Positions 5,416 through 64,000 of a stretch of DNA of 64,000 nt are shown here, one piece after another. Numbering within the stretch: position 1 is the stretch's first letter; each line of letters starts with the position of its first letter. The DNA comes from Panopea generosa (lineage: Eukaryota; Mollusca; Bivalvia; Adapedonta; Hiatellidae): the NCBI GenBank assembly GCA_029582155.1, contig CM055894.1, positions 28,805,207-28,869,206 on the forward strand. The letters run 5' to 3'. Position numbers and translations under genes: made by a program. The notes beneath the pieces were generated by a model. It made no database searches, had not been told where the DNA came from, and saw nothing but the letters and a program-made list of their open reading frames with translations.

Positions 5416-8070
5416 ATGAGGAAGGCATATGCCATTACAGAAAATTTCACTAGAATAAATAATGGAGAAAAACAATCAGCAGTCTCTAAACAGCTCCGAA
5501 TCGCCGAATCAACAATGTGTTGGTGGCTGAATGATGAGGAAAAACTTCAGCTTACCTCGATCAACATGGATGAATGTGGCCAGAAATATGAATGAGCCAA
5601 AGAGGCAAAAGATGCTTTTTTTTAAACTGGTTTATCCAAGAATGTGCTGAAGGGGTTCTCATCTCCAACACAAACCAGAGCTGAACAAAGATACGAGCAG
5701 CTTCAAGGCCAGTAAGGGGTGGTTTAATCGATTCAAGGGCCGCCACGGCATCATATTCAAAAGAACTGAAAAAGGGCAGCGATGTTTCCATCATATCAGC
5801 AAGGGCACACTGCTGTTTATATACATATTAAAAATGCCTGGATGATGTCTGTTCTATCTGAAGACTAGTTCCATAAACATTTTGCACCAGCACGGAAACA
5901 AAAGCTTGAGTGCGAGGCCATACAATTGATGGACCACTGCCCAGCACATCCAAGAGATGCACTCATCAGCAAAGACAAGAAAATAAATATCTTCCAATAA
6001 ACACAATATCTAAGAAACGGTCACTGGACCAAGAGCTCTTTACTACATTCAAAAGAAACTACTGACGAAAATTAATCAACAACATGCTAAATGGACAGAA
6101 GACCATCACCAAATATTTAAACAAGAGGGCCAAGATGGCCCTATATTGCTCACCAGACTGACCTTGGGTCACCCAACTTAGAAGATTATATAATACATGT
6201 ACACTCAAAATTCCAGAAAAATGAGATGGGCAAGAATTTTGATTTGTTTTGAAGATGTAACAGATGCGTAGAAGAGTTCAAACTTGGTAGAGGTTCACCC
6301 ATGGTAAATGTCAGTGAAATAACATTGAAATCAGATCAGTAGATTCTTACAAGAAGGCTTTTGAAGTTTTTACTATAGCTGCCTATATAGTAAACTAACA
6401 CCTCAGTGTGGCGGTCATGTTTTTTAACAAATCACAACGGCTCATATAAACTTGGTAAAGGGTCACCCAAGGAAAATCTCTGCGAAATTGTTTTAAAATT
6501 GATCCAGTGGTTTCTGACAAGACGATTTTTTAAGTTTTAACTATAGCTTATATAGTAAACTAACCCCATCCCATGACCACCATATTTTTTGACGAATCAC
6601 TACGGTTTGAACAAATCAAACCAGTAGTTTCTAACAGGAAGATTTTTTAAGGTTTTACTAATTAAACTTGCCCTGCCCCCTGGCCGCCATGTTTTTTGAC
6701 AAATCAAGACGGCTTGAACAAATTTGGTAGAGGGACACCCAAGGACAATTTCTGTGATATTATTTTAAAATCGAGCAAGTAGTTTTTGACAAGAAGATTT
6801 TTTAAGTTTTTACTATAGCTTATATAGTAAAATAACCCCACCCACTTGCCACCATGTTTTTTGACGAACCAATATGGGTTGAACAAACTTGGTAGAGGGT
6901 CACCCAAGGAACATTTCTGTGAAATTATTTTAAAATTGAGCCAGTACTTTCTGACAAGAAGATTTTTTAAGTTTTTACTATAGCTTATATAGTAAACTAA
7001 CCCCACCCCCTGGACGCCATGTTTTTTGACGAATAAAGATGACTTGAACAAACTTGGTAGAGGGTCACACAAGAACCGTTTCTGAGAAATTATTTTAAAA
7101 TCGAGCCCGTAGTTTTTGACAAGAAGATTTTTTAAGTTTTTACTAATTAGCTTACATAATAAACTTACCCCACCCCCTGGCCGCCATGTTTTTTGACCAA
7201 CCAAGATGACTTGAACAAACTTGGTAGAGGGTCACCCAAGGAACATTTCTGTAAATATATTTTAAAATTGAGCCAGTACTTTCTGACAAGAAGATTTTTT
7301 AAGTTTTTACTACAGCTTATATAGTAAACTATCCCCACCCCCTGGCCGCCATGTTTTTTGACGAATCAAGATGACTTGAACAAACTTGGTAGAGGGACAC
7401 CCAAGGACCATTTCTGTGATATTATTTTAAAATCGAGCCAGTAGTTTTTGACAAGAAGATTTTTTAAGTTTTTACTAATTAAACTTGCCCCGCCCCCTGG
7501 CGGCCATGTTTTTTGAAGAATCAAGATGGTTTGAACAAACATGGTAGAGTGTTACCCAAGGAACATTTCTGTAAAGTTACATCAAAATTGGTCCAGTGGT
7601 TTCAGAGAAGTTGTTAGAAGCTAAAAGTTAACGACGGACGACAGATTACGGCCAACGGCCGACGGACACCAAGTGATCACAAAAGCTATCCTGTGAGCCT
7701 TTGGCTCAGGTGAGCTTAAAAGATGAATATTAAGGATGCTAGATGAAAGGACTTGGTCCCTCATTCACCAACGATGCCAATACAAACTTCGATGGATTTA
7801 CCATAGATGTGCTTTGAACTGCTAGCTGAGCAAAACCTTGCAAATACCAGAAACTATGACGGATTCAACCCAGAAGATGTAATCGCCACTCAACAAGCTT
7901 TAGGAGATCATTTGACAACATTAGAGATCCAAGATTGGTTGAATGCTGATGATGAAACACCCACCAACTACAAGGTGACATACGACAAGATTGTAAATAG
8001 CACCAGAAATAAACCCATAGAAAATGATGTTGATGAAGATGACGACCTTGACCCATCCCCAGCTTTATAA
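5416..8070 (+). pseudogene. pogo-family (Tc1/mariner) transposase fossil, split by a repeat
   Basis: Degenerate transposase in three stretches. The N-terminus from ATG at 5,416 has a psq/CENP-B-like helix-turn-helix (INNGEKQSAVSKQLRIAEST). The region 5,690-5,800 contains a second HTH phrase on the pattern KGWFNRFKGRHGI in shifting frames. Around 5,900-6,110 a run resembles the catalytic core (DHCPAHP). The C-terminal tail lies at 7,807-8,070, with an acidic end (DVDEDDDLDPSPAL) and the EIQDWLNADDE motif usual for Tigger/pogo tails. Several frameshifts and stops are visible, so it is inactive. The family 2 repeat at 6,122-7,715 interrupts it. TIRs were not found. Confidence 0.75.
6122..7715 (+). 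repeat. CAAGAG-type repeat, family 2, copy B, inserted in the pogo fossil
   Basis: Starts CAAGAGGGCC and ends at the hairpin-distal AGGTGAGC. It carries about six interior units of roughly 180 bp (6,400-7,560). It is flanked on both sides by TTAAA (6,117-6,121 and 7,716-7,720), consistent with a target duplication within the transposase sequence. The long open frame on the minus strand at 6,704-7,204 is just the tandem unit read through and shows the same ~60-residue phrase three times. Confidence 0.8.
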
Positions 8071-8394: not shown

Positions 8395-9798
8395 CAAGAG
8401 GGCCAAGATGGCCCTATATCGCTCACCTGACTGACCTTGGGTCACCCAACATAAGTAGATTATATAATACATGTACACTCAAAATTCCAGAAAGACGAGA
8501 TGGGCAAGTAGTTAGAATTTTGATTTGTTTTGAAGATGTAACAGATGCGTAGAAGAGTTCAAACTTGGTAGAGGTTCACCCATGGTAAATGTCAGTGAAA
8601 TTACATCAAAATCAGGTCAGTAGATTCTGACAAGAAGGCTTTTGAAGTTTTTACTATAGCTGCTAAGTCTTCGAACTAAGATAAAAATCCAGTTCCAGCA
8701 CAAAACTAACCTGTTATGTTTGAGAACAGTTTCAAACTAAAGCATCAGACTAAACTATTGTACATGAAACAATCCACACTTCCAGCACAATAAATATTCC
8801 TATGAGTTTCAAACACAAGCCTTCCCAAAGTCTATCGCTTGAAAGAATTTTGTCGCAGTGCACTCTCCTCCAAGATTTCAAGTACACTTTGACACTGAAA
8901 ATCTTAAGCAGACTTCTTGCTGTGATGAAACTAGCTAAAAATATGGCATTGCTTTATTATGAAGCAGTAAACCATCCCTGTCTAAACCATAAATACTCTG
9001 ACTTTTATATTCAGAAAAACACCTATTTTAAAATGGTTCATGATATATGAATAATATTATAATATTTCAATCATTGATTATAATTGTTTCATTCATCTTT
9101 TTATGATTTATTATCTTTTAAAACTTATATCTGGTATAATATTGTATAATAATAGCAAAAAAAAAAAGTTTATTTAAAGAGTTTATTACCTCTTCTTATA
9201 ATAATTGCTATATACAGACATTTATGCTATAAAACAAGGAAAGTAATTTGACATAAAACTAACCCCATTCCCTGGCTGCTTTTGACGAATCAAGATGGTT
9301 TGAAAAAACTTCGTAGAGGGTCACCCAAGAAACATTTCTGTGAAATTATTTTAAAATCGAGCCGTGAAGTTTCTGACAAGAAGATTTTTTAAGTTTTTAC
9401 AATAGCTTATATTGTAAACTAACCCTACCCCCTGGCCGCCATGTTTTTTGACGAATCAAGATTGCTTGAACAAACTTGGTAGAGGGTCACCCAAGAAATA
9501 TTTCTGTGAATTTATTTTAAAATCCAGCCAGTAGTTTCTGACAAGAAGATTTTTGAAATTTTATCTAATTAAACTTGCCCCGCCCCCTGGTGGCCATGTT
9601 TTTTGATGAATCAAGATGACTTGAACAAACTTGGTAGAGGGTGACCCAAGGAACATTTCTGTGAAGTTATATTAAAATTGGCCAGGCGGTTTCAGAGAAG
9701 TTGTTAGAAGCTAAAAGTTAACGACGGACGACAAACGACAGACGACGGACACCAGGCGAACACAAAAGTTCACCTGTGAGCCTTTGGCTCAGGTGAGC
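8395..9798 (+). repeat. CAAGAG-type repeat, family 2, copy C
   Basis: Begins CAAGAGGGCCAAGATGGCCC and ends in the AGCTCACCTG...CAGGTGAGC hairpin at about 9,765-9,798. Both sides carry TAAAAA (8,389-8,394 and from 9,799), a likely target duplication in an A-rich site. Shares with copies A and D an interior stretch around CGCAGTGCACTCTCC. No coding signal. Confidence 0.8.
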
Positions 9799-10410: not shown

Positions 10411-11305
10411 CAAGAGCTGTCGAAGGAACAGCTATTCGAATATTTGTCACAGAAGTACAAATTTGATTGTGACTGATGACAATTCCAAGCAAATAAGTAA
10501 TCTAACTTCTAAAATTGACAAAATTGAATAGGTTTTATAACTGCAATATCTTGTATGAAGCTTCATTCAAATACATGCAGTGAGTTATAAAATTTCTAAG
10601 TAAAACAAAAGGCCCTAATTTGCAAAAATATATGGCAAGAGTTATCCAACTTCATTTATTTAGTTGATTTCATGACTACAAAGCCATACTTTAAGTTTCA
10701 ATCAAATACACTGAGCAGTTGGTTGACAGTACTTCTATTCAAAATTTTAACAACATTTTCTACGTCAAACAATGGCATTAATTTGCATTATATTCATGCA
10801 AAAATTATCTAACTTAGTTATTGTAGTAAGGTTGATGACTTGAAAGGCTTGTGTAAAGTTTCAAGTCAATACAGGCATTGGTTACTGAGAAATGGACTTG
10901 ATTGTATTTGTAGCAAAACTTTAACCAGATATTCTAAGTCAAACAAAGGCAATGATTTGCATTATATTCATGCAAGAGTTGTCTAACTTAGTTACTGTAG
11001 TAGGGTTGATAACTAGAAAGCCTTGTGTAAAGTTTCAAGGCAATACATGCAACGGTTACTGGGATAGGGACTTGCATGCAAATGTTTAACCAGGATTTCT
11101 AAGTCAAACAAGGGCAATAATTTGTATTATATTCATGCAAGAGTTATCTAACTTAGTTATTGTAGTAGGGTCATGACTAGGAAGGCTTGTGTAAAGTTTT
11201 AACCTAAAACATGCAATGATTACTGAGATAGGGACTTGCATGCAAAACCAAGGTGTGACGCCTGGGTGAGTAGAATAGCTATCTTTATTCTCCGAATAGT
11301 CAAGT
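10411..11305 (+). repeat. CAAGAG-type repeat, family 1, copy 2
   Basis: Begins CAAGAGCTGTCGAAGGAACAGC, a small hairpin start, and ends near GAATAGCTATCTTTATTC followed by TCCGAATAGTCAAG. The interior has three to four units of about 150-160 bp with TTGCATTATATTCATGCA and TAGTTATTGTAGTAGGG. Relative of 90-637. Confidence 0.7.
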
Positions 11306-31779: not shown

Positions 31780-34301
31780 CAAGAGGGCCAAGATGGCCTT
31801 ATATCGCTCACCTGACTGACCTTGAGTCACCCAACTTAAGTAGATTATATAATACATGTACACTCAAAATTCCAGAAAGACGAGATGGGCAAGTAGTTAG
31901 AATTTTGATTTGTTTTGAAGATTTAACAGATGCGTAGAAGAGTTCAAACTTGGTAGAGGTTCACCCATGGTAAATGTCAGTGAAATTACATCGAAATCAG
32001 GTCAGTAGATTCTGACAAGAAGGCTTTTAAAGTTTTTACTATAGCTGCCTATATAGTAAACTAGCACCTCATGGTGGCGGTCATGTTTTTTAACAAATCA
32101 CAACGGCTTGAACAAAGTTGGTGAAGGGTCACCCAAGAAACATTTCTGCAAAATTGTTTTAAAATCGATCCGGTGGTTTCTGACAAGAAGATTTTTTAAG
32201 TTTTTACTATGGCTTATATAGTAAACTAACCCCACCCCCTGGCCGCCATGTTTTTTCACGAATCACTACAGTTTGAACAAACTTGGTGAAGGGTCCTTCA
32301 AGGAACATTTCTGTGAAATCATTAATTAAACAATTTACTAATTAAACTTGCCCCACCCCATGGCGGTCATGTTTTTTGACGAAACAAGATGGCTTGAATT
32401 AACCTAGTAGAGGGTCACCCAAGGATCATTTCTGTGAAATTATTTTAAAATTGAGCCAGCAGTTTCTGACAAGAACATTTTTTAAGTTTTTACTAGAGCT
32501 TATATAGTAAACTAACACCACCCCCTGGCCGCCATCTTTTTTGACGAATCAAGATGGCTTGAACAAACTTGGTAGAGGGTCACCCAAGGAACATTTCTGT
32601 GAAATTATTTTAAAATCGAGCCAGTAGATTCTGACTAAAAGATTTTTTAAGATTTTACTATAGCTTATATAGTAAACTATCCCCACCTCCTGGCTGCCAT
32701 TTTTTTTGACGAATCAAGATGGCTTGAACAAACTTAGTAGAGGGTCACCCAAATAACATTTCTGGGAAATTATTTTAAAATCGAGCCAGTAGTTTCTGAC
32801 ATGAAAATTTTTTAAGTTTTTACTAATTAAACTTGCCCCGCCTCCTGACGGCCATGTTTTTGACGAATCAAGATGGCTTGAACAAACTTGGTAGAAGGTC
32901 ACCCAAGGAAAATTTCTGTGAAATTATTTTAAAATCGAGCTGGTAGTTTCTGACAAGAAGCTTTTTTAAGTTTTTACTATAGCTTATATAGTAAACTAAC
33001 CCCACCCCCTGGACGCCATGTTTTTTGACGAATCAAGATAGCTTGAACAAACTTGGTAGTGGGTCACCCAAAGAACATTTCTGTGAAATTATTTTAAAAT
33101 CAAGCCAGTAGTTTCTGACAAGAAGATTTTTTAAGTTTTTACTATAGCTTATATAGTAAACTGTCAAGATGTTTGGTGAGTATCTTGAACTAAAAACGGG
33201 ATCTTCTGTAAGGCGACTGTGTCTTCACTGGATTAAGCTGTGAAACAGCCTAGCTTGAAACTATGTTAAACATTTTGTTCAAACTATATAATATATAAAT
33301 TTTCCTCAGGTTTCTTGCCTCATGATTAGTAAACTTCAAACAAAAACAATAATAAAATGATTCTAATAGAAAGAATCTTTGTCGCAGTGCACTCTCCCCG
33401 CTACACAATTAATCTCGTCCTCCGAGGTTTCAAGTACACTTTGACACTGAAAATCTCAAGCAGACTTCTTGCGTCGAAAGAAACTAGCTAAAAATATGGT
33501 ATTGCTTTAATATGAAGCAGTAAACCATCCCTGTCTGAACCATAAAAACTCTGACTTTTATATTCAGGAAAACACCTATTTTAAAATGGTTCATGATTGA
33601 TGAATAATATTTCAATCATTGATTATAATTGTATCATTCATCTTTTTATGATGAATTATCTTTTAAAACTTATATCTGGTAAAATATTGTATAATAATAG
33701 CGAAAAAAAAGTTTATTTAAAGAGTTTATTACCTCTTCTTATAATAATTGCTATATTGTAACAGACATTTATGCTATAAAACAAGGACATTAATTTGACA
33801 TAAAAACTAACACCACCCCCTGGCCGCCATGTTTTTTGACGAATCAAGATGGCTTGAACAAACTTGGTAGAGGGTCACCCAAGGAACATTTCTGTGAAAT
33901 TATTTTAAAATCGAGCTGGTAGTTTCTGACAAGAATTTACTATAGCTTATATAGTAAATTAACCCCACCCCCTGGCCGCCATGTTTTTTGACGAATCAAG
34001 ATTGTTTGAACAAACTTGGTAGAGGGTCACCTGTGAAATTATTTTAAAATCGAGCCAGTAGTTTCTGACAAGAAGATTTTTTAAGTTTTTACTAATTAAA
34101 CTTGCCCTGCCCCCTGGCGGCCATGTTTTTTGATGAATCAAGATGGCTTGAACAAACTTGGTAGAGGGTCACCCAAGGAACATTTCTGTGAAGTTATATC
34201 AAAATTGATTGGCCCAGTGGTTTCAGAGGAGAAGTTGTTAGAAGTTAAAAGTTAACGACAGATGACAGACAACAGACAATGGACACCAGGCTTCGGTGAG
34301 C
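31780..34301 (+). repeat. CAAGAG-type repeat, family 2, copy D (largest)
   Basis: Begins CAAGAGGGCC and ends CTTCGGTGAGC with a partly lost terminal hairpin. Contains about nine interior units of roughly 180 bp and the CGCAGTGCACTCTCCC segment at 33,380. A-rich flanks (TTTTAAAA and TAAAAAAAA). The open frames on the minus strand inside (32,714-32,902 and 33,959-34,141) are translations of the unit and not genes. Confidence 0.8.
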
Positions 34302-38928: not shown

Positions 38929-39486
38929 TCATTCCGCTTCCTCTAGTTGGTACAATCTCTTAGATTTACCAGTGACAGTTAGACTTTTGACCACCAATAA
39001 GACCTTATCCTTACTTACCCAAATCTCATCACGGTTTTGGGGGGATTTATAAGCATTGCCGTATTTACCTGCCTTTGTTAAAAAATTAACTTGAATATCA
39101 TCTGTATCAATCTTGGTAATTTCTCCTATAAACCAGTCTTTATTGTACACTGCTGCTACCCACTCTCCACATTTTGACATGCCCATTGGATCTTGTTTAG
39201 CCTGTTTCAGTTTGTATTTCTGTTTCTTTGTCTGTGATGTATCTGGTGCCTTGGACTTATGTTTGTTTACTTGTATCCCATCTGGTGGTGGATTTTCAAC
39301 TTTCTTGGATTTCGTTTTCTTCATATCGGTGGATTTAGCAGACAATGATTCTATAGCATTTGTTGCATTCTTGGGTTTTGGACTATCCTTTACAAGTTGC
39401 TGCGCTGTCTCTCTCTTTCCTTCTTTTTGTATCCTTCTGTGTTAACTTCCTTTTGTTTCTGTCGCTCTGCGTTGGTTAGCGCCATT
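38929..39486 (-). CDS. Small protein with Tudor/SH3-like domain (coding exon, one frame slip)
   Basis: Minus-strand exon with acceptor TTTTTACAG just before ATG at 39,485. It starts MALTNAERQKQKEVNTEGY, an N-terminal motif found in several uncharacterised invertebrate proteins, continues through a lysine-rich linker, and ends in a domain with GEWVAAVYNKDWFIGEI and NRDEIWVSKDKVLLVV, which I read as a Tudor/SH3-like fold. Two reading frames are needed: they meet at a GAGAGAGA run (39,406-39,420), where two extra bases shift the frame. That could be a sequencing slip, a polymorphism or a real lesion. The stop is at 38,929-38,931. Total about 184 residues if continuous. Likely nuclear by lysine content; function unknown. 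Confidence 0.55.
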
Positions 39487-40290: not shown

Positions 40291-40584
40291 CTGTTCGGTA
40301 TAATCAGGCGTATACTGATACCGCATGTATACTCATATTATTTTCATTATGTAGGTGATGCGTTACATAAGTGTGAAAATACAGTTCAAATGTCAGTTTA
40401 TGTCTTTAGGTTGTTACTATTTTTAATAGATTTGGTTTTGTTATTACTAATATTGGTTACATTAATGTGCAGATCCAACAAATTCAATACAGACGTGTAA
40501 ATTATGCAACAAAATACCATTACGTAGGTGAAGTTCGGAAGTGTGACAAATTTAAAAGAGAATTTAGAGTTGTATATCCACTTA

Positions 40585-40637
40585 TAGGCTGGTAAACGAA
40601 ATCTTGCGTAGCATCATGTCTCGGACTAATTGCAACA
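40585..40637 (+). repeat. Left terminal inverted repeat of the Academ-like element
   Basis: Outer 17 bp TAGGCTGGTAAACGAAA, then a 19-bp non-matching spacer, then TCGGACTAATTGCAACA, all mirrored at the other end with an 8-bp spacer. Confidence 0.85.
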
Positions 40638-41571
40638 CAAACGTTTCTATTATTTTCGTAAACTACAATATATGTAGTTATACAGGGAGAAAGTTGCATT
40701 CACTCAGATCAGGCATTTCTGAGAAAATTGACTTTATATTAAGGGCATAACGAAATGTTCTAATAACCACTCACATATACATATTTGAGTGTTGTGGTAC
40801 CTTTTTTGATAATTTATGGTATGTTTTACCTTAATTTATACATTATTTACATGTACATAGGTTTAATGGTATTTTTTATCATTCTTTGCATTTGAATGTA
40901 AGAAATAATTCATTTTTTCCTTTTGTGATGGGGGAATTACCCCACCCACTATTATGAATATACAAAAAAATAAAAATCGAAAATGAAACAGACAAATCTT
41001 TATTTGTGTTGATAATTATTTCATTTGCATTAATTATGAAATCTCAAATATAACTCCTCAAAATGATCAGTTTAAATTATGGTTCAGCATACATGCGTTA
41101 ATTAATAGATTTGATACACGCGTAATGTATGTACAATTCTATCACTCCAGAACTGTCCGATAAACATTGTAATACAGAATGCAAATACAATTACACTATC
41201 TTTCCAATTATCAACAAATGGTAATAAAACTTCGTGCCTTCGTACTTTAACCCTTTCCCTCATATAAACGCTTTCTGACCCCTCTACTGCAGACGGCCTT
41301 TTGAAACATGGTGGCAAAAGAAGAAATTGCATAAAACGTGCAATTTCTCCTTTTGACACAATGTTTTCCACTTTAAATCAAAGGTTATCATTTGAATTAT
41401 AGAGAGTTTCTATGTTTTGACAAATCAAACAAGTCGTTTGTTGCAGGATTGTCGTATGATAGAAAGAGTTAAGGACTCTTAATGCTTGATGCGGCTCAAG
41501 TTATCATATGTTAAAAGATCCAACAAAATAGACAAAACTTGACATTGCATGTAAAACTAAGTAAATTCAAC

Positions 41572-42190
41572 CTATTCTGGCATGTGGGAGTTTGTGCAAC
41601 TAATTCCACGACAGGCTCCACATCCAAAAGAACATTCCAGACCGTGTTTCCGACATGAGCATCGTTTACTGTCACAGTTAGCTTTGCAATTACATCGAAC
41701 AACGTTCAGCAGTTTTGCGGGTGCTACAGGCATGTTATTTTTTATGGGACTGTACACCTCATTCTTCAGCTGCCAACCCCAGTCTTCAGGTTGCAAGTTT
41801 TTTTTCGCCAATCCATGTTGGAGACTGAATATACACTGAAATGCTATGGAAAGCTGTTGCAGCAGATGTCGGTGGTAGTGTATGGACTTGAACGCACGAT
41901 GTACTCGTCATAACCTTCGCAGTGAATTTTTGGAACCTTATTACGTCAAGATTTTGATCCGTATTTTCACCAAGAAGCAATATCAGAGCTAATTCTCCAT
42001 TGCGCATTACTTCTTGTTTTGTCTCACTTGTCATGAAGAGTGTCCCCACCTCTTGTAGCTGGTGACTCGTACAAAGCCTTTTCAATGCAGCGGTTTTGCC
42101 GATCCCATAGATTCGCGAGGTAGTGTCGCAACCCGTGAGTGCATGTAGAAATGTGAGAAGATCACAAACAGGTCTTGTTAGTATTGCCTG
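41572..42190 (-). pseudogene. Academ-like protein: nuclease tail and C-terminal cysteine cluster
   Basis: From right to left: LTFLHALTGCDTTSRIYGIG then KTAALKRL (a helix-hairpin-helix-like G-x-G motif as in FEN1-type nucleases), then LPPTSAATAFHSISVYIQSP. In a second frame follow LQPEDWGWQLKNEVYSP and the end RCNCKANCDSKRCSCRKHGL, then CSFGCGACRGISCTNS. The last part has nine cysteines in CXC-like spacing, probably a zinc-binding DNA-contact domain. One frame change separates the two halves near 41,800. Confidence 0.75.
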
Positions 42191-42735
42191 TGTTTTTTTT
42201 AATGTCCCAAACTTTGTTTTGTTTTAATTTTGTCTGCTTCGTATCAGACTTAAACAAAATATTCATTGCGTCCTTCGCATGATAACACAGAAGGACAAGC
42301 AGATCTGTGTCTTCTCCTATCACAAACGTCGTAGTGGTTTCAGCATGCTCTACGGCTGTATCGACTATAAGTACATCTGCATCGCTTTCTGCATACCTAA
42401 CGTTTTATCCCTCTTTCTTCAAGGTAACTCCCCAACAAGTATATAAAGTTTTGTTTGTTTTCAATGTTTTTCAGGAACGAATCTTTGCTTGATCGAAAGG
42501 GTGTGTCGTTTGTAAATCTCACTAGTGTGCCTACTATTCCTATATTTCGGCAAACGTGGGTGATATCCTTGTTGGATGGTCCATTGGAGTAGCCATCAAA
42601 CACTACTGTTGTGCTCGAATACTTCTGGGCCATACTTCTGGGCCAAGTACTGAAAATATTGTTCCCATATAATTCTAAATGTGCTATTTATCTGCCACGG
42701 AATCTTCTGTAACAAAGACCCCCCATCAATCACGT
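42191..42735 (-). pseudogene. Academ-like protein: FEN1/XPG-like nuclease domain
   Basis: Motifs in order: VIDGGSLLQKIPW (about 42,690-42,730, N-terminal Asp motif), VVFDGYSNGPSNKD (about 42,560-42,605, like VFDGxPP of FEN1), ESDADVLIV (about 42,360-42,390, acidic motif) and GEDTDLLVLL (about 42,290-42,317, second acidic motif). These match the metal-binding aspartates of the PIN/FEN nuclease fold. A 13-bp tandem duplication near 42,635 (CTTCTGGGCCATA-type) and a frame change near 42,395 break it. Confidence 0.75.
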
Positions 42736-43836
42736 AGGACACCGACTCTGTTTGCATTTGAATATGGTCGAAATATCTTCATCACACCTATCGGCCACTG
42801 TAATTAAACGTTGAAAAAGAAATTGAGGATTAATGAATACTGTTTCATCATTTATCTTTATAGAGCTATGTTCACTTAGTGGTACTGCTTGACCTTTCCT
42901 TTTGTATACGTATTCATCAACGGGTTGTCCAACCATGCCATGAATAATTTTCTTCCCTTTGTCAAAAGCCACATCAACATTGACTCGTTTATCCGCTGTA
43001 ACACCAGTTTCTATGTTTCGCAAAGATATATCTGCCTCTTCAAATGGAGATCGGGCTTGCAAGAATTGCACAACTTGTTCTACATCATGGCTGTCCCATT
43101 TACGGCGTGATAATGACGTATCTTGGTGTTGTTCGCTGGTAGCATAATTAGTGCCACTGAAAACTTGCATGGCGAGATTCATTTCGGCACATGCTGGCAT
43201 AGATAACAGCCACAACGTTTGCTGAGCCTCAGACATGCCTCTTCCCCTCGTAAGTCCTGCAGTGGTCTTCAATGATCGCATCAATACCTGTTCAATAATA
43301 AGATTGGTAGAATGACCTCCCCAGTACCTATCTGTTCTTCTGACAGTGTGGTTCCCTTGTAAGAACTGTCGGTGTACATCCGGATGCTCATGTTCCAATC
43401 TCGTCATATTTTGAAGATAGACGTAGGCAGATTTCAGATATAGATAGTGTCCAGATGCAGCAAAATATGGTAACATCTTTCTAAGAGCATTTAGATGTCC
43501 AATCCAATCACCAGTTCTCTCTGCACGTATAAATTGTTTCAGTACCGCAATCATATCTATGTATTGAAACCATAATGCTGCTGTTCTGTGTTTGTGTAGC
43601 TTTACTTTAAGTTCGACGATCTTTTGAGACACCACTTTCAAACTTTCACTTTGACACACTTCATGTTTGGAAACAATGTTTTTTTCAAGTTTGTCATACG
43701 TCTCTGATAAGCTGGTCATTACATCCAAATGAGATTCAGAGCTGCTGGTGCATTCCTGTCGAACTTCTCCGGTTGAAAGGGAAACTTCAATGTACGTCTT
43801 GCCAGCGTGTTCAGAATCATTTGATTCATCTACCAT
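42730..43836 (-). pseudogene. Academ-like protein: central helical region
   Basis: An open 368-residue stretch including WFQYIDMIAVLKQFIRAERT, MLPYFAASGHYLYLKSAYVY, VVIEQ-like LIIEQVLMRSLKTTAGLTRG and LLSMPACAEMN. This pattern is shared by multi-copy uncharacterised proteins of cnidarians and molluscs that I associate with this transposon group. It is separated from the upstream part by two frame changes between 44,030 and 43,840. Confidence 0.7.
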
Positions 43837-43996
43837 GTGAAATAATGTGGTGCTGCATCCAGTCTTGTGTTCAGTTGTGCCATCCCCTGGAATGAATCAC
43901 ACGTTGATATTATGTCATCAGGTACGTATACGTCGTTGACACTGCTTCTGCCATTGTCTTGATTGTAGGACATTAGCATAGTAGGGTATATATTTG

Positions 43997-45454
43997 CTAG
44001 CAAAATTGCGTGTAGAGCCGTATCAACAAGAAAATGTCCTCTGATCGCGCGTGATATAGTTTCCCAGACATCGTATGTGTCACTGCGTTTGGGGCATATA
44101 TTGTCTGAAGCACGTCCTGCAATCCGGAACCCGACATGATAAAGCCCACAGAGCCAAGGAAACTCATTTCAGTGTGAAAGGCGCCCAATCTGAGAACGAT
44201 ACTTTTAAGTGGACTCGACCCAACAGACATAGATACAATTTGTGTAGCTTTCTGAAATAACGGCTGATCAAATGTCAGGACTGGTGTAACTCCATACCTG
44301 CTAGATTGCTTGCATACAAAGGGCAGGGTCGAATTTATGCATGACATATCAGAGGGACTCATGTCTATCATAGGTAAAAACGTTACAGATGATTTGCCTG
44401 GGTACATATCAGATTCCTGCTTGATGTACATCTGCATAAAGCCAGACCAGCTTGGACGTGTTTCTTTCAAAGGCCAAATTACTTTAGAGAATAAATCAAA
44501 CTGACTATTATCGAAGTCCTCTGTTGTTGAGTCATTGTCTTCCCCAAGGTTAAGGAAATGTATTTTCTCTGGTGCTCGATTGTCAGGGTGTTTGAAATAT
44601 TTGATGGTTATTTTTCCAATATCTGACAACTCACTCAGTTGAATGTTTGCCCTAGGGATCGGTAGGCTTACGTTGGACCCGGGTGATGTACAAGCTATAA
44701 TCCCCATCCAATGGAATGTTCCGTGCCCATCAAGCGTACGAACGTTATGGTCCGCATTGTCTGCTACAAACTGAAGGAATTTTCCAGGGAAATAAGATGG
44801 GATAGTTGTGCACAGTGTTGCTGCAGCATTTAACTCAAACCGTTGAACCTCATAATATGATGCACTAAACCCCATACTATTAAGTAAATCCAGCAAGAAC
44901 CTAGAACCAAAGTGGTGATGTAACTGAACACCTAGACCTATCTGTAAAGGTGCCAGTAGGCTCTTTGGTCTGCATGCCTGTATTATTGCTTGACCAATTG
45001 GTGCTAACTTAACACTGGTATCATTCCCACACAATAATACTGTCAGCAATGTCTGTAAACTTGCAGGAATGAACTCCTTATTTTCATTTGTAGACAAAAC
45101 AGAAGAAAATGATGGGTAGAATTTCTTGATGGTCTCTGCTTGGATTGAATTAATATCAGCCTTGATCAGCTTCGCTGCTGCAGTTATAATTGTTTTCCTT
45201 TTTTCGCTTTCCGAAAACCCTTGTGTATCGTTTGAGAAGTTATGAATAATTTCTGATGCTTTTTGTTTCATTGTGACCTTACCTTCAGTATTGCCGAAAG
45301 TGGTTACTGATATAGAGTCTCCAAAATGGTCAGTTAACCTGTTTTTCAGATGTTTGTATGAGTAAGCACGGTCCCCACAAGTATCTTCCATCAAATGAAT
45401 CAGTTCAGACATTGTTAATACACACCCCTCATTTTCTTCTATATAACTCACCAC
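43997..45454 (-). pseudogene. Academ-like protein: transposase-like core
   Basis: An open 485-residue stretch, the longest frame in the window. Notable are SLLAPLQIGLGVQLHHHFGS, FVADNADHNVRTLDGHGTFH (closely spaced aspartates, candidate catalytic strand of an RNase H fold) and LKSIVLRLGAFHTEMSFLGS. No standard superfamily motif is as clear as in the nuclease part. The catalytic assignment is inference. Confidence 0.7.
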
Positions 45455-46056
45455 ATTTTTGAATGCTTCAGTGGTATCTGGTGCTTCAGGTCTTCCTGGG
45501 CTTTTTGTTTACTTTTTACAAGGACTGGCATCTGTTTCAAACTCCTTGGGAAGCTGTCGATTTGTCCTGAAGTTGACACTGCATGTCTGATGGTATAATG
45601 CATCAGCCGCTGGTAGATCAATTATGCTAGCGATCCTTCCAGAGACAACATGGACCCACTGATCATTCCTTTCTGAACATACACGTTCAATGGACTTCTT
45701 ATAAGGAAGAATTCTAACTGAAAAAATAGCATAGCCCCGTTTTCTATGGTTAAACTTTGCATCCTGTGAACAAAATATGCATTTATGTTTAAAGTCAAAT
45801 ACGCCCGATGACCTTGTAGAACATTTAGTAGTACTATCATTCTATCATTATTGTTAATATCATAATTGCTAGCTATAACGTTGCGTTTATGAATATAGTC
45901 TCTTCTGCAGTCCACCGGAACTTCCTGTCCAGGAATAACATTTATGTTTGATTGCCGCTCATCACTGGCTTCGTTTATCGACTTGCTGCCTTTATTCCGT
46001 AGCTTCACTGTGGGAAGATCATTGAGAGGTGTGTTGCAGAATACACAGTCATCCAT
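45454..46056 (-). pseudogene. Academ-like protein: N-terminal zinc-binding region
   Basis: From ATG at 46,056: MDDCVFCNTPLNDLPTVKLR and GQEVPVDCRRDYIH form a Cys/His cluster. In a second frame follow FDFKHKCIFCSQDAKF and ADALYHQTCSVNFRT, a second C-x2-C...H-x3-C unit, then SPGRPEAPDTTEAFKNV leading into the core. One frame change lies near 45,810 and a stop near 45,510. Confidence 0.7.
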
Positions 46057-46399
46057 CTGAAATGAATAATAACGTCCATTTGTAAGGTTTCAATTTGGGT
46101 AAATTCTAGAAAAGTGATGATTATATGTAGCAATAACATTCACAGACGAATGCAGCAGACATAAGGTTGAAATTGATTGAGACAGTTTCGACAGTCTACA
46201 TTCTTAAGTGTGTATAGAGCATGATTTCATTCTTCAATTATTAGTGCATAGGTTATAATTATTCTATACCAGTATGTGTTGTGATGTATTGGTCTATAAA
46301 ATATTATCAAAAATATCTAAAGTGGGATTGTTGTTTGTCCAACAATATATTATGTGCATTATTCGGTTAGATTGGTACAAAACACGTACGATGTGTTAG

Positions 46400-46760
46400 C
46401 TCTGCTGTGCTGCCGGTATCCCAAGAGATGTATGGTTCACCGTTGGTTGTGCAGAATACAATAATACACTGCAGCTGTATTCAGCATCTGAAATTAAACA
46501 AAAATTCAATTACAAAGGTCCTCAAGATGGTTTTACAATAATATTATAACATAATAACATGTATCAATATTAAAGCAAGCTTTACTATTATAATTGTATT
46601 GTGCTGCAACGGTCTGTTTTGCAAAATTGTTGTTTAATAAAAGATAGGTACTTAGGTACACGTACAATGATATATTTATGTACTGCTGCTGGTGATCCAT
46701 GGTATGTATGGTTGCTTGTGTGGCGTACATCTGCGCAATATTCAGCCTGCAATGTAAGAA
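46400..46760 (-). other. Two similar exon-like segments upstream of the Academ-like gene
   Basis: Minus-strand segments ending near 46,749 and 46,489 are each preceded by a splice-acceptor-like CAG. Both encode related phrases: AEYCADVRHTSNHTYHGSPA and AEYSCSVLLYSAQPTVNHTS (then LGIPAA). They look like a duplicated exon in the 5' part of the transposon. Expression is unknown. Confidence 0.35.
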
Positions 46761-47526
46761 AAAATGCGTTTAAATACATAGACCCTGTATATGATTTTAT
46801 TGTAATATAATGATGTTAATAACACACAAAAACATTCAATGATATAAAAACAATCATAACATATTCTAAACAAAGTGTTACTTGTCAAAACTTGTAAATT
46901 CAGTAATTAAATAAGCTCCTGATTTGGTAGTCAGTTAACACGTTTTTTAGAATTATGGCAAAAATGGGCTTCCATACTTTGAAAAATGAACGAATGTGAC
47001 CCTCGAGAAGTAAGTTTTTTTCTTCAAGTAAGTGTTATTTTGTTCATTTTGAACACTGTTGTTAGTTTAATACAAATGTTTAACGCTAGCAAAACTCTTA
47101 ATATCCTAAAATTGCATGTTTATACCGTATTCAACCTAACCTCAAATTTCATCATGAAACAACGTTCATCAACAATTATGCAGACATACAAGACTTAAAC
47201 ACAAACAAACTTCACGGAATTCATTAAAAATAAACATAATTGATACTTACCCCGCATATTTGATCGATAATGGCACTTTCAAACAGTTGTTTATATATTT
47301 TGACTGGGCGCCGCCATGAAATTATGACGTATTTTGATGACGTCATTGTACCTCCCGCTGAAGAATTCTTACTATGGTGAGCTAAACCGTCCAAAATTTC
47401 AAATTATAAAATAGGGTATTTTTTTTTTTTTTAAGTCAATATTTTTGTTTTGCCGAGGAACACAGTCTGCAAGTTTGGTTTGGGAGATACTAATACAATG
47501 TACTTTCGTTCTGTATAAATACAGTT

Positions 47527-47570
47527 TTTGTTGCAATTAGTCCGAGTGAATATTTTCGTTTACCAGCCTA
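47527..47570 (-). repeat. Right terminal inverted repeat of the Academ-like element
   Basis: Reverse complement reads TAGGCTGGTAAACGAAA, 8 bp, then TCGGACTAATTGCAACA, as at the left end. Confidence 0.85.
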
Positions 47571-47573
47571 TTA

Positions 47574-52798: not shown

Positions 52799-53895
52799 AG
52801 AAGACTTTATCAATCCGCGCAATGTACCGAAATTTAGCAAGAAATCAATCGTATTACAATCTGTAAATGGAAAAGCATTAACAGTAGATGGTTATTTTGA
52901 ATTAGATTTTGACTTAGGAGGTAAAAAATTTAGTCCTACTTTTTATGTGGTACCAAACATGAATCGAAGAATGATATTAGGTAGAGCTTTATTTTGATCT
53001 AAATTTGTTAAGAATTGAAGGAATTACGTAAAAATGGAGGAGGATCTTCATATCTCTTCTATAGTAAGACTAAAATCTACCACCATTTTAAAACCACAAA
53101 CAATAAAATTAATGTTGTAAATGGAAAATTAAAATATAATCCAGATTTGCCAACACATGATTATGAAATAAGACTGTTAGAAACAGGATTTGTTAGTTCA
53201 GAACCAGGATTAGTAGTTTCAAATTCAGTACTTCAACTAAATCATGATCATACATTTCCGGTTATGCTAATTAATAATTCACAAAAAACTCTTAGGCTAA
53301 GAAAGGGTTGTGGTATTGCAAAGGTTGAAAAACTAAAAGATGCTAAATTTACTTCAGTAAATGAGGATAACATGTCAGTCAGAGGTGACAACTGAAAAGT
53401 TTAATCGTAAGGATATTACGGCACCTAGCGAACATTAAGACGACATACATAACTTTTTACAGGAAAATTCAGATTTATTTGCTGAAACAGATTTAGATAT
53501 AGGTAGGGCAATTGGCCCAAAACTGACATTAAATACAGGAAATAATCCTCCAATTAAATCAAGACAGTATCGCACTCAGATAAACAATAGGAAACATATA
53601 GATAAAGCAATTAGTGATAGGCTTGAAGCTAAAGTTATACAAAGATCAAACTCTGCATGGAGTTCCCCGATAGTTCTAGTAGATAAGAAAGATGGTACGA
53701 AACGATTATGTGTTGATTATAGAAAGATTAATTAAATATCAAAACCTATAGCTTATACAATCCCATTAATAGAATGATGATATATTGTTGTTGTTAGGGA
53801 ACGCAAAATACTTTACGTTAGATTTAAAGAGCAGCTACTGGCAAATTCCTGTAGATTGAAGAGATCGACATAAGACAGTATTGGTCTATTTATAT

Positions 53896-54035
53896 CTTAC
53901 GACAACATTACATATGCTAATACTCGATTTGCCATAATCCACGAAAACAGAAAGACTTAACTATCCTCTATAAGTAACGAGTTACTATCCTTTGCTATAA
54001 ATATGCGCATGCGCGAAAGCAACTGCCTCTTTCTG
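53896..54035 (+). repeat. Left inverted terminal repeat of DIRS copy 1
   Basis: Begins CTTACGACAACATTACATAT and includes GCGCATGCGC. Matches the reverse complement of 59,908-60,047 nearly perfectly. Confidence 0.9.
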
Positions 54036-56099
54036 TTTTCGTAACCTCGTGTGAGGTAGGTAATTCGAATTCACTCGTAAAAATTGCTAATTTTCCACGG
54101 TTTCTTCGTTATATAGTACGTTTTATTGTTTTATTAAGAAGCACATTCATTAGTTTGTAGTTGTGTTACTTCTTTTCAGCGAATAAATTCGCTTTACAGT
54201 TTTAATTCTCAATTTAATTTCGCGAGAATTTCACTGTTAAATTATTAAAAAGTAAATAGTCGACGAGTTTCTTCATCATTTAACTGTTTTTTGTTGTTTT
54301 TTTTTTTACAAATAATATGTGCAAACTAACCGGCGAAATTGTTCGCCAATTTTGTTTTATATTTCAGGATATTTGTACAACCTGCGTTTGTACAAAATGT
54401 CCTAACAAAGCTCAGTCTTGGTAATCAAGGGATATACTCTTAACCCAGGTATCTTCACCACGGGGAGATATCCCTCAGATTCCAGGGGCCTTCCCATGGA
54501 GCAATGTCTCTTGGAGGAAGGCACCGTTGGTGTTAGAGCTACACCCTCCGTAGACCTTCGACCTCCGGGTCAGTTTACAAGGAGTCTCAATGGGCTAGGT
54601 CTAGTACCAAAACCCAGAGAGTGACGGGTGGACGAAGATGCTCCAGGAGCTCCTCCACATTCGCTAGCTATCACTGTCCCAGCAGCTCTCTGTAGCAGCA
54701 CAAAGACTTGAAGAGATTTCCCTTAAAATCAGCTATCACTGTCCCAGCAGCGCACAACAGCAGCACAAGGACAGGAACAGAAGGCGATCGAGGGAAGACT
54801 ACCACTAAGAGTGGAAGGGAACATAGAAGAAATAGAGGTAAAGTTTCTTGTTTTTCATCTAAGGGAAGAGACACCGACTTTCGGTTTTCTTTTTCTCTTC
54901 TTATTAAAGGGACAGATCTAAGGGAGTCTCTACACTAGTTCTAATAGTCTTGGAAACTAACCAGTGGAATTCCAATGACATATCTATACATTACCCCCAA
55001 AAATATATGTATACCTTACCGGAATTACCGGAATCAAATTTACAAAGGCAAGTGGGGGGTGCCCTTTAAATAAACAATGGTGTTTTAACCATGAGGAGTT
55101 TTCCCTAATTATTATAAGGGCCTTCCAATGGAGCAATGTATCTTGAAAGAAGGCATCTTTGGTGTTGGAGTTACACCCTCAGTTAGACCTTAGACCTAAG
55201 GGTCAGTCTAAAAGGAGTCTCATAGGGCTAGGGCTGGTACCACAACCCAGAGATCTCGAGTACTTTCTCACTCAACTAGATCTAATTTTTCCAGGGGTTT
55301 CACTCCTGACCACGTAGTCCCTTAACTCCCTGCTAACCAACTACCAGTCCCCTTTCCAGGGGCGATGGTTGCTTCTCTTTCCATTGATGACAAGGCCATT
55401 TGGTCGAGAAATTAAAGGAACACCCTTTCCCCATTACTCAGAGATGTTTTCTCTGCTTAGAGATATATTTGGCCCTGAACTTTGTCTCACAGTGGTTTAT
55501 ACTTACACTACTGTTCAGGGTTACTTAGCCTTAGAATTTTATTTAAGACTCACACTCCACCTAACTCTATCCTTTCGCTACCACAGAGTAGTCAGGTACC
55601 TCATTTGATGACTATTTTACATCAGAGCTTAGAGAGGAAGAGATGGTCCCTTATGGCCCTTCCTCTCACTTTTCTAAAGCTATTACGTCAGACAGGTTGG
55701 GCACGGATTTGAAGTACTGTAATTAATTCTTTACATTCGTTGGCATGTTAAGAAGTTCAGGCCCAATTTCACTCGGATATTATGGGGGCGGAGGTTGCTC
55801 TTCCGAGAGGGTTCGCCGGTCAACAGCACTCGATCGGTGTCCGCTTCCCTGAGGATGGTCGTTCGCACTCCTGTTACACGGAGGGGAGAACCCGTCGCTT
55901 TATAGCATCTGTGGTATCTTGTCTATCCGGCAGGACCATAAACTTACCTGAAGCTCTCATCGAGCTGCATCTATTCCTATAGTCAATGGTTAAGGACAAC
56001 GCCAATATGATGGAGTATTTCGTCAGGCTTTCAATATTTCCTTTCTTTAAGGAGTCAGACTTTTCTGTTGGAGTAGAGTTCTCTAAACCAACAGCTGGT

Positions 56100-58910: not shown

Positions 58911-59797
58911 TAGAAGAAGTAGTACTTCCATGAGCAAACTCAACAGCACACGAAGTTAGAACATTGTCTTCTTCTCTTGCTTGGCTGAATTCTAATTCTC
59001 AGGATCGTATCCTATGAGCATGTTACTGGAGTTCCCATAACTCCTTAACTAAGTTCTATATAAGAGATTACTCATCTTTTTATATTTCCTGACTCTAAGT
59101 TCTGTTGTGGTAGCTCAGTTTGTGATCAGAGGTGAACCTCTAGATTGAGTTTGTTTTTAACAAACTTTATGGTTTTAGACTACATAATCTAGCTCCTTTT
59201 GGTGGGTGTTTTATGTATCAGGTTTCTTGATCAAATAAATTTATTTACATTTTAATTTTCATCTTACTGATATTTGTTAATCTAGGATTTATGTTATGTT
59301 TCTCTAACTTAATATATCAATATATCAATACATGGATCTCCTAATCAACTTCTGAAGTTCTGATTTTGTAGATTTATGTAAGTATATATATAAGATAGAT
59401 ATATATTACTTAAAATATTTTGACCTTTTGACTGCCGTGTCTCCAGGTATCTTTGACTAGAGTTTCTTCAGTCTACACAGGCAGAGTAAGTTATTTCTGC
59501 TACTTTATAATATGGAATGGATTACAAGCTGTACTTGTTGGAATGAAGGTCTTCTACAACTAGACACTTTGGTCATCTCCTACTTCGGAGATGTTACAGC
59601 ACTTCCAGATGGTTCTACAAAGTATGTAAGTTTTGTAGCACTGTTAAAGTTTATTTAGTTTAGTTCTATGTTAAAATTCATAACTGATTTTTACATGACT
59701 TATCTTAGTTTCTTAAGATAATTTTTTACAGGCTCCCCTGTTCCCTTTTATTTTGACTTATCTATCCTCTCCTCCCCAGGATTTTATGTTAAAGTCA
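58911..59797. other. DIRS 3' non-coding part
   Basis: AT-rich interior sequence between the recombinase remnant and the internal complementary region; no separate feature seen. Confidence 0.5.
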
Positions 59798-59892
59798 GCA
59801 TATGTAATGTTGTCGTAAGATATAAATAGACCAATATAGAAAATTTGAGTTAATTTTACTATTTGTCTATAGTATACTTACGACAACATTAC
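59798..59892 (-). repeat. DIRS internal complementary region
   Basis: 59,798-59,835 is the reverse complement of the left end (to TATTGGTC), and 59,836-59,892 the reverse complement of the right end (from TTTTCTAT), joined directly. This is the circle-junction template typical of DIRS-1-like elements. Confidence 0.9.
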
Positions 59893-59907
59893 AAGCCCTC
59901 CCCTCCT

Positions 59908-60047
59908 CAGAAAGAGGAAGTTGCTTTCGCGCATGCGCATATTTATTGCAAAGGATAGTAACTCGTTACTTATAGAGGATAGTTAAGTCTTTCTGTTTTC
60001 GTGGATTATGGCAAATCGAGTATTAGCATATGTAATGTTGTCGTAAG
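59908..60047 (-). repeat. Right inverted terminal repeat of DIRS copy 1
   Basis: Mirror of 53,896-54,035. Ends ...TAATGTTGTCGTAAG before a unique 41-bp outer extension. Confidence 0.9.
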
Positions 60048-60302
60048 TATACTATAGACAAATAGTAAAATTAACACAAATTTTCTATGTTTTTATGTCA
60101 TAAAGGCTTGTATGAATTTAATGTTGCTCCGTTTGGGTTACATTCGAGCCCGGCTGTGTTTATGGAATTAATGAATGAGGTATAAGAGGGATGTAAAGGT
60201 TTTGCATTTGCGTACCTAGATGACATTATCATATATAGCCCAAATTTAGAAACTCCCTATGATCATATCACCAAGGTTTTCACCAAACTACGAAAACATG
60301 AT

Positions 60303-61198
60303 TTGAAACTCAAAATCAGTAAATGTAATCTTTTACAAGCTGAACAAGGTATTCGCCCAGATGAAGGAAAGGTCAAAGCAATAAAAACACTAAAAGCGCC
60401 TACGTCTGTTAGAGAAGTAAGATCCTTTATTGGAATGGCAGTATATTATAAACAGTTTATTCAAGGTTTTTTAAAGATAGCAAATCTGCAAATAGAATTG
60501 ACAAAGAAGTTTGCAAGATTTAAGTGGGATCAAAACTGTCAAAATGCTTTTGAAATAATAAAAGAACGTCTTGGTTCACTCCCACTGCTTGCACATCCAA
60601 ATCCAGCTAAAAGATATATTTTACATACCGACGCCTCTAATTTTGCGATAGAAAGTGTGTTATCCCAACCAGTAGATGAAAGTATTTCAGATTTAGATAG
60701 TAGTAATCTGTTGCCGATATATTACTTGTCACACAAATTAAGTAAGACACAACAAAAATGGCTGACGAATGTTTTGCCATTTACTTTTCACTTTCAAAGT
60801 TAGATCATTATCTATATGGGGCTACTTTCACAATATTTTGCAATCATAAACCGTTGAAATATGTTTTAGAATCACCAAATCAAAATAAACTAATACAGCT
60901 TTGGTCATTAGCAATATCAGCATATAATGCGAAGATTGAATTTATCGAAGGTCGTAAAAATGTTTCAGCAGATTTGTTGTCTAGAATACCAGAATCAGAG
61001 GCATTAGCAGTAGGTTCTAATGAGGAGATAACATTAGAAGATGTAAATGACAGGAGTTTTCAGATAAACACAGTAAACACACATCAGTTAAACACAAGGG
61101 CATATATGGGTGTTGATTTAAACTTTAGACAATCACCAACAGAACGTGTCAAAACATTTAAGTCTTTCAATAAGGTCACTAAACAATCGAAAGATTAA
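60303..61198 (+). pseudogene. Ty3-type RT end, RNase H and connection domain
   Basis: The right half of the split polymerase: AYLDDIIIYSPN near 60,213, then APTSVREVRSFIGMAVYYKQ, FIHTD-type YILHTDASNFAIESVLSQPV (RNase H), and NAKIEFIEGRKNVSADLLSR. Continues the Ty3 fossil beyond the DIRS insertion. Broken. Confidence 0.85.
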
Positions 61199-62098: not shown

Positions 62099-64000
62099 TA
62101 TTGGTCTATTTATATCTTACGACAACATTACATATGCTAATACTCGATTTGCCATAATCCACGAAAACAGAAAGACTTAACTATCCTCTATAAGTAACGA
62201 GTTACTATCCTTTGCTATAAATATGCGCATGCGCGAAAGCAACTTCCTCTTTCTGTTTTCGTAACCTCGTGTGAGGTAGGTAATTCGAATTCACTCGTAA
62301 AAATTGCTAATTTTCCACGGTTTCTTCGTTATATAGTGCGTTTTATTGTTTTATTAAGAAGCACATTCATTAGTTTGTAGTTGTGTTACTTCTTTTCAGC
62401 GAATAAATTCGCTTTACAGTTTTAATTCTCAATTTAATTTCGCGAGAATTTCACTGTTAAATTATTAAAAAGTAAATAGTCGACGAGTTTCTTTGTCATT
62501 TAACTGTTTTTTACAAATAATATGTGCAAACTAACCGGCGAAATTGTTCGCCAATTTTGTTTTATATTTCAGGATATTTGTACAACCTGAGTTTGTACAA
62601 AATGTCCTAACAAAGCTCAGTCTTGGTAATCAAGGGATATACTCTTAACCCAGGTATCTTCACCACGGGGAGATATCCCTCAGATTCCAGGGGCCTTCCC
62701 ATGGAGCAATGTCACCGGGAGGAAGGCACCGTTGGTGTTAGAGCTACACCCTCCGTAGACCTTCGACCTCCGGGTCAGTTTACAAGGAGTCTCAATGGGC
62801 TAGGTCTAGTACCAAAACCCAGAGAGTGACGGGTGGACGAAGACGCTCCAGGAGCTCCTCCACATTCGCTAGCTATCACTGTCCCAGCAGCTCTCTGTAG
62901 CAGCACAAGGACTTGAAGAGATTTCCCTCAAAATCAGTTATCCCTGTCCCAGCAGCGCACAACAGCAGCACAAGGACAGGAACAGAAGGCGATCGAGGGA
63001 AGACTACCACTAAGAGTGGAAGGGAACATAGAAGAAATAGAGATAAAGTTTCTTGTTTTTCATCTAAGGGAAGAGACACCGACTTTCGGTTTTCTTTTTC
63101 CCTTCTTATTAAAGGGACAGATCTAAGGGAGTCTCTACACTAGTTCTAATAGTCTTGGAAACTAACCAGTGGAATTCCAATGACATTTCTATACATTACT
63201 CCCAATAATATATGTATACCTTACCGGAATTACCGGAATCAAATTTACAAAGGCAAGTGGGGGGTGCCCTTTAAATTAAACAATGGTGTTTTAACCATGA
63301 GGAGTTTTCCCTAATTATTATAAGGGCCTTCCAATGGAGCATGTATCTTGAAAGAAGGCATCTTTGGTGTTGGAGTTACACCCTCAGTTAGACCTTCGAC
63401 CTACGGGTCAGTCTAAAAGGAGTCTCATAGGGCTAGGGCTGGTACCACAACCCAGAGATCTCGAGTACTTTCTCACTCAACTAGATCTAATTTTTCCAGG
63501 GGTTTCACTCCTGACCACGTAGTCCCTTCACTCCCTGCTAACCAACTGCCAGTCCCCTTTCCAGGGGCGATGGTTGCTTCTCTTTCCATTGATGACAAGG
63601 CCATTTGGTCGAGAAATTGGGAACACCCTTTCCCCATTACTCAGAGATGTTTTCTCTGCTTAGAGATATATTTGGCCCTGAACTTTGTCTCACAGTGGTT
63701 TATACTTACACTACTGTTCAGGGTTACTTAGCCTTAGAATTTTATTTAAGACTCACACTCCACCTAACTCTATCCTTTCGCTACCACAGAGTAGTCAGGT
63801 ACCTCATTTGATGACTATATTACGTCAGACAGGTTGGGCACGGATTTGAAGTACTGTAATTAATTCTTTACATTCGTTGGCATGTTAAGAAGTTCAGGTC
63901 CAATTTCACTTGGATATTATGGGGGCGGAGGTTGCTCTTCCGAGAGGGTTCGCCGGTCAACAGCACTCGATCAGTGTCCGCTTCCCTGAGGATGGTCGTT
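62099..64000 (+). mobile_element. DIRS-type element, second copy, cut by the window end
   Basis: Begins at the same base as copy 1 (TATTGGTC after AGT) and follows it with about 97-98% identity by eye through the inverted repeat (62,116-62,255) and 5' region to the window end. Same orientation as copy 1. Incomplete here, so its right end and wholeness cannot be judged; broken in the visible part. Confidence 0.9.

Follow-up and report, generated by a model that had tools for sequence, protein, structure and literature searches.

The question raised by the 64,000-nucleotide stretch of contig CM055894.1 analysed here (the window) is what kind of element occupies positions 40582-47573, where two mirrored ends enclose the broken coding region of a transposase-like protein with FEN-type nuclease motifs. 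The locus is very probably one copy of an AcademX-branch DNA transposon whose ends are intact but whose coding region is dead, and probably a new, inactive AcademX member of a kind already known in animals. The ends, the duplication, the remnant of one protein and its motifs are observed directly. The element spans 6,986 bp (40585-47570) with TTA adjoining both ends, and its termini are arranged as follows.

40582-40584, unstranded: left target-site duplication, TTA (from the sequence)
40585-40601, plus strand: left outer terminal inverted repeat, 17 bp, exact mate at 47554-47570
40602-40619, unstranded: left spacer between the end blocks, 18 nt (end comparison)
40620-40642, plus strand: left inner block, 18 bp exact and 22/23 overall, mirrored at 47524-47546
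47524-47546, minus strand: right inner block, mirrored at 40620-40642
47547-47553, unstranded: right spacer between the end blocks, 7 nt (end comparison)
47554-47570, minus strand: right outer terminal inverted repeat, 17 bp, exact mate at 40585-40601
47571-47573, unstranded: right target-site duplication, TTA (from the sequence)

The perfect 17-bp outer repeats, the TTA on each side and the unequal spacers described in an earlier note on this DNA are all found at these positions, and its second mirrored block of 17 bp is also present but with a greater real length. The outer repeat, TAGGCTGGTAAACGAAA, is identical between the ends at 17/17 bp and has only these two matches in the window at up to three mismatches, with 0.28 expected and two matches reached in 2/100 shuffles. 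The 17-bp core of the inner block likewise has two matches only in the window (0.19 expected), a count reached in 0/100 shuffles. Pairs of random 58-nt segments from the window, drawn such that other repeats and the element itself could be included, had a common word of at least 14 in 2/19,819 cases with the longest being 24, compared with 18 for the element ends. The sequences flanking the element have TTA only in common. It is very hard to credit that the inverted repeats are chance or unrelated sequences placed around a decayed host gene; one copy only is seen and exact inverted pairs of 15 bp or longer with mates no more than 15 kb apart number 22 in the window, both element end pairs included, which favor this explanation, whereas the two nested blocks occur in the same order at both ends together with TTA and, of the other 20 inverted pairs, 12 come from a single repeat cluster at 53.9-62.3 kb.

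The region between the ends contains the remnant of one long coding region, with features listed below from the N to the C terminus of the protein (the five FEN motifs are placed by motif search, pattern and location).

About 41572-46056, minus strand: remnant of one long transposase-nuclease coding region (frame map)
46036-46056, minus strand: MDDCVFC, first cysteine cluster and likely start (frame map, motif location)
45834-45849, unstranded: 8-bp tandem duplication at a frame change (from the sequence)
45722-45781, minus strand: second Cys/His cluster, CIFCSQDAKFNHRKRG... (motif location)
44744-44764, minus strand: ADNADHN, candidate first catalytic aspartate of the transposase core (location computed, role presumed)
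44258-44278, minus strand: LTFDQPL, candidate second catalytic aspartate (location computed, role presumed)
44034-44185, minus strand: GAFHTEMSFLG ... RAIRGH, end of the candidate core (location computed, conservation presumed)
42719-42733, minus strand: FEN motif 1, VIDGG
42619-42645, unstranded: 13-bp tandem duplication at a frame change (from the sequence)
42589-42603, minus strand: FEN motif 2, VFDGY
42375-42389, minus strand: FEN motif 3, ESDAD
42303-42317, minus strand: FEN motif 4, GEDTD
42074-42139, minus strand: FEN motif 5 and helix-hairpin, LTGCDTTSRIYGIGKTAALKRL
41596-41694, minus strand: nine-cysteine CXC-like tail (cysteine spacing)

The order of the remnant is two Cys/His clusters, the candidate core motifs, five FEN-type motifs and the nine-cysteine tail. 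The peptide motifs named in the earlier note all lie on the minus strand in the order it gave, with the Cys/His clusters near the N terminus and the tail at the C-terminal end. The ADNADHN motif that it offered for a candidate RNase H core is in place, and the core stays a candidate; we take ADNADHN and LTFDQPL to contain catalytic aspartates and GAFHTEMSFLG...RAIRGH to be conserved. The cysteines of the tail have a spacing of 1-3-4-1-6-3-2-4, which we assume to be similar to that of a CXC domain, and a Pfam search of the tail at E up to 1 gave no match.

The coding fragments at 41,572-46,056 belong to one protein remnant, but in our reading of the frame map its frame changes eight times and is closed once by an in-frame stop, and introns may be present at some of the break sites. 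The copy is thus described as coding-dead but end-intact and is probably inactive. A different explanation, in which the breaks are mostly assembly or read errors in an intact and active element, departs from the Academ assignment only on the coding-dead state and is unlikely. The excess of eight frame changes over a single in-frame stop and the nearly perfect end repeats point in its direction, whereas at two of the eight breaks 8 and 13 bp are cleanly duplicated in tandem, and these look like real mutations.

The nuclease part of the remnant contains one FEN1 motif more than the earlier note had recognized. Its four PIN/FEN motifs (VIDGG, VFDGY, ESDAD and GEDTD) are all present in order, and LTGCDTTSRIYGIGKTAALKRL (GCD...GIG) is a fifth motif, overlooked there, that completes the FEN1 set in order and would hold the last metal-ligand aspartate and the GIG hairpin of FEN1. 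The successive motif distances are 39, 71, 26 and 60 residues with 7 to GIG in the remnant, shifting by a few residues with the choice of frame joins, compared with 53, 72, 21 and 61 with 8 to GIG in Pyrococcus furiosus FEN1, for which the reference sequence used matches PDB code 1b43 end to end. A five-motif spacing pattern, with limits drawn after the sequences were seen, matches 5/5 archaeal FEN1 sequences and the present protein and 0/100,000 shuffles of the latter, and looser limits still give 0/100,000. The motifs strongly suggest a FEN-like nuclease, as a call made at motif level and not from a demonstrated fold.

Academ is supported as the best fit among the kinds of element weighed. 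The AcademX nuclease is of the XPG type and terminal inverted repeats are an AcademX feature; the word XPG occurs 0 times in the text of the source cited next. Passages of this source give duplications of 3 or 4 bp for AcademX and of 9 or 10 bp for AcademH, with lengths that seem tied to the encoded nuclease in the former and helicase in the latter (PMC10045372). The present element has the 3-bp duplication on both sides, with a 2-bp reading possible, and inverted repeats in which both outer and inner blocks are mirrored. No helicase family was found among 10 protein pieces searched against Pfam at E up to 1, and the flanks, sharing TTA only, contain no 9-10 bp duplication. The Academ assignment of the earlier note fits by nuclease motifs, 3-bp duplication and inverted ends.

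A capture of a FEN-like nuclease by another DDE/D superfamily with 2-3 bp duplications, such as Zator or an EnSpm/CACTA relative, is improbable. The ends also permit a reading as GG...CC termini next to a 2-bp TA duplication and the core matched no Pfam transposase family, which would suit such an origin, whereas the termini TAGG...CCTA are unlike CACTA. In passages of PMC10045372 Zator also has 3-bp duplications, but the published account of AcademX pairs a nuclease with duplications of 3-4 bp. Passages of PMC10294476 place Academ itself among the DDE/D superfamilies, describe its expansion as specific to bivalves and give 100 curated elements of mean length 5,565 bp; a passage of PMC4455052 names it among the superfamilies added to Repbase, with a 2010 report as the source, and a passage of PMC9143410 takes it beyond bivalves with 1,097 copies in a whitefly.

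Several results weigh against the assignment to AcademX and against the nuclease call. The assignment was made from published Academ descriptions, kinship of the core to Academ being presumed, and no second copy of the element was seen in the 64-kb window. Against a FEN1 profile built from five archaeal sequences, the joined nuclease reached -2.4 bits, with the best shuffle at 5.6, and ranked 202 of 408 reported in a set of itself plus 1,000 shuffles (1,001 sequences); hhalign of this profile with the joined nuclease gave a probability of 0.2%. The profile check proposed in the earlier note yields no signal here, a result that leaves a FEN/PIN fold neither confirmed nor excluded. Pfam searches of the 10 protein pieces at E up to 1 gave five weak matches in four pieces, all below the cut-off and none a nuclease or transposase, and none were obtained with the joined nuclease when E was allowed up to 10. 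Sequence searches of the PDB gave no nuclease among 2, 34 and 2 weak matches, with 33 of the 34 being KRas (best E 0.32). Single-sequence structure predictions of a 503-residue transposase piece (mean predicted local distance difference test score of 38.3) and a 181-residue nuclease piece (29.9) were rejected as unusable, and a pairwise MAFFT alignment with P. furiosus FEN1 placed the motifs out of register and was not used. Because the FEN1 profile does not detect this protein and the structure predictions are unusable, the nuclease call rests on the motifs and their spacing.

Relatives were also sought in other sequence collections. Viral contigs searched with the 503-residue piece and a 388-residue piece gave 6 pattern matches each, none of which was confirmed. 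A first degenerate DNA pattern for the transposase core had 0 matches in viral contigs and 0 in genome contigs, and a second pattern found 2 viral loci, rejected with translations showing nothing related, and 14 genome-contig loci. In tblastn searches of ten pieces against the loci of the second pattern, only short weak matches were obtained (best E 0.21). One locus with several such matches, L011, was rejected with open frames that in our reading look like ordinary bacterial genes, and XPG_I (PF00867) was not found in its genome, with 4/14 control genomes positive, all archaea. The GCDTT...GIGK pattern had 0 matches in viral contigs, and a pattern for FEN1 itself also had 0; the viral contig collection may therefore hold little of the FEN family. 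No match was obtained by tblastn at E up to 1 for the joined nuclease in plasmids or the 388-residue piece in phages, and FEN1 as bait found 1 plasmid record (Salinibaculum, annotated as a flap endonuclease) and 0 phage records.

The arrangement of ends and motifs is consistent with a mechanism in which a single protein, roughly 1,490 residues long, would have held both ends by binding their two-block repeats, probably through its zinc and CXC-like parts. The candidate RNase H-type DDE/D core, with catalytic roles presumed, would have excised the element and inserted it into a TTA target across a 3-bp stagger. After strand transfer, the FEN/XPG-like nuclease fused to this core may have trimmed 5' flaps of the donor flank, or a branched junction. 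Enzymes of the FEN type act on 5' flaps, cutting them where single-stranded DNA meets double-stranded DNA, and flap trimming is for this reason the likeliest of the possible nuclease roles, with chances that we place at about even. A transposon that encodes a flap-type nuclease for itself would allow the role of this enzyme to be tested.

The window has a G+C content of 33-40% in 4-kb steps and is eukaryotic-looking and repeat-rich, with 0 Rfam matches at gathering thresholds. The cluster at 53.9-62.3 kb includes two direct repeat copies spaced about 8.2 kb from each other (covering at least 53880-54159 and 62100-62379). Between them lie an inverted partial copy (59797-60075) and reverse transcriptase/RNase H fragments (60186-61198), and the whole looks like a long terminal repeat (LTR) retrotransposon in which an inverted LTR piece is placed internally. 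A unit of about 165 bp (TTTTGACGAATCAAGATGGCTTGAACAAACTTGGTAGAGGGTCACCC...), or a variant of this unit, is arrayed at 6676-7597, 9280-9678, 32010-33162 and 33892-34173; similar repeats occur in bivalves, and the repeat types make a bivalve host probable. A 174-bp unit repeated three times at 10740-11248 resembles the window start. Left of the element, the minus strand at 38929-39441 has an open frame of 170 residues, lysine-rich and followed by ...WVAAVYNKDWFIGEITKI..., with no Pfam match at E up to 0.001.

The spacers are the most unusual part of the ends, being 18 nt on the left and 7 nt on the right with sequences unlike each other, while the blocks are near-identical between left and right. 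The retention of the blocks while the spacers drifted suggests two protein-binding sites per end. The length difference of 11 nt is approximately one helical turn and is the same as that between the 12- and 23-bp RAG signals. It is conceivable, though doubtful, that the ends form a short-spacer and long-spacer pair of which the transposase synapses one of each, as an independent counterpart of the RAG 12/23 rule; this idea stays a hypothesis because one copy only is available. The 7 and 18 nt may instead come from a chance insertion or deletion rather than a fixed pair, and a difference near a whole turn would arise by chance in perhaps about 1 in 5 cases by our own estimate. No description of two-block Academ ends was found in the titles, abstract starts and passages searched for these ends or for the nuclease role, a scope with the main Academ papers outside it; the passages included those on Academ in PMC10799480, PMC9783078, PMC9143410, PMC9004415 and PMC8905726 and on RAG-like elements in PMC7204232. 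Should further copies retain the 7/18 spacing, Academ would add to the natural examples of transposon ends that are asymmetric and helically phased.

Compared with known systems, the element is ordinary as a member of the Academ family. It resembles AcademX in its nuclease motifs, 3-bp duplication, inverted repeats and likely bivalve host, and differs in having two-block ends with unequal spacers and in its length of 6,986 bp compared with the 5,565-bp mean of the curated Academ elements in the bivalve study (PMC10294476, in part). AcademH belongs to the same superfamily but has a helicase and 9-10 bp duplications in passages of PMC10045372. Archaeal FEN1 (e.g. PDB code 1b43) shares the five acidic and hairpin motifs in the same order with similar spacing, and differs in that similarity is absent at profile level and the present nuclease is part of a transposon protein. 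In passages of PMC8289069, ProtoRAG ends are bipartite with unequal spacers of 27/31 bp and RAG signals have spacers of 12/23 bp, a likeness to the present element that concerns the ends only; the RAG and ProtoRAG systems have 5-bp duplications, CAC-type ends and RAG1/RAG2-like proteins. The comparison is thus one of how the ends may work, with no relationship claimed.

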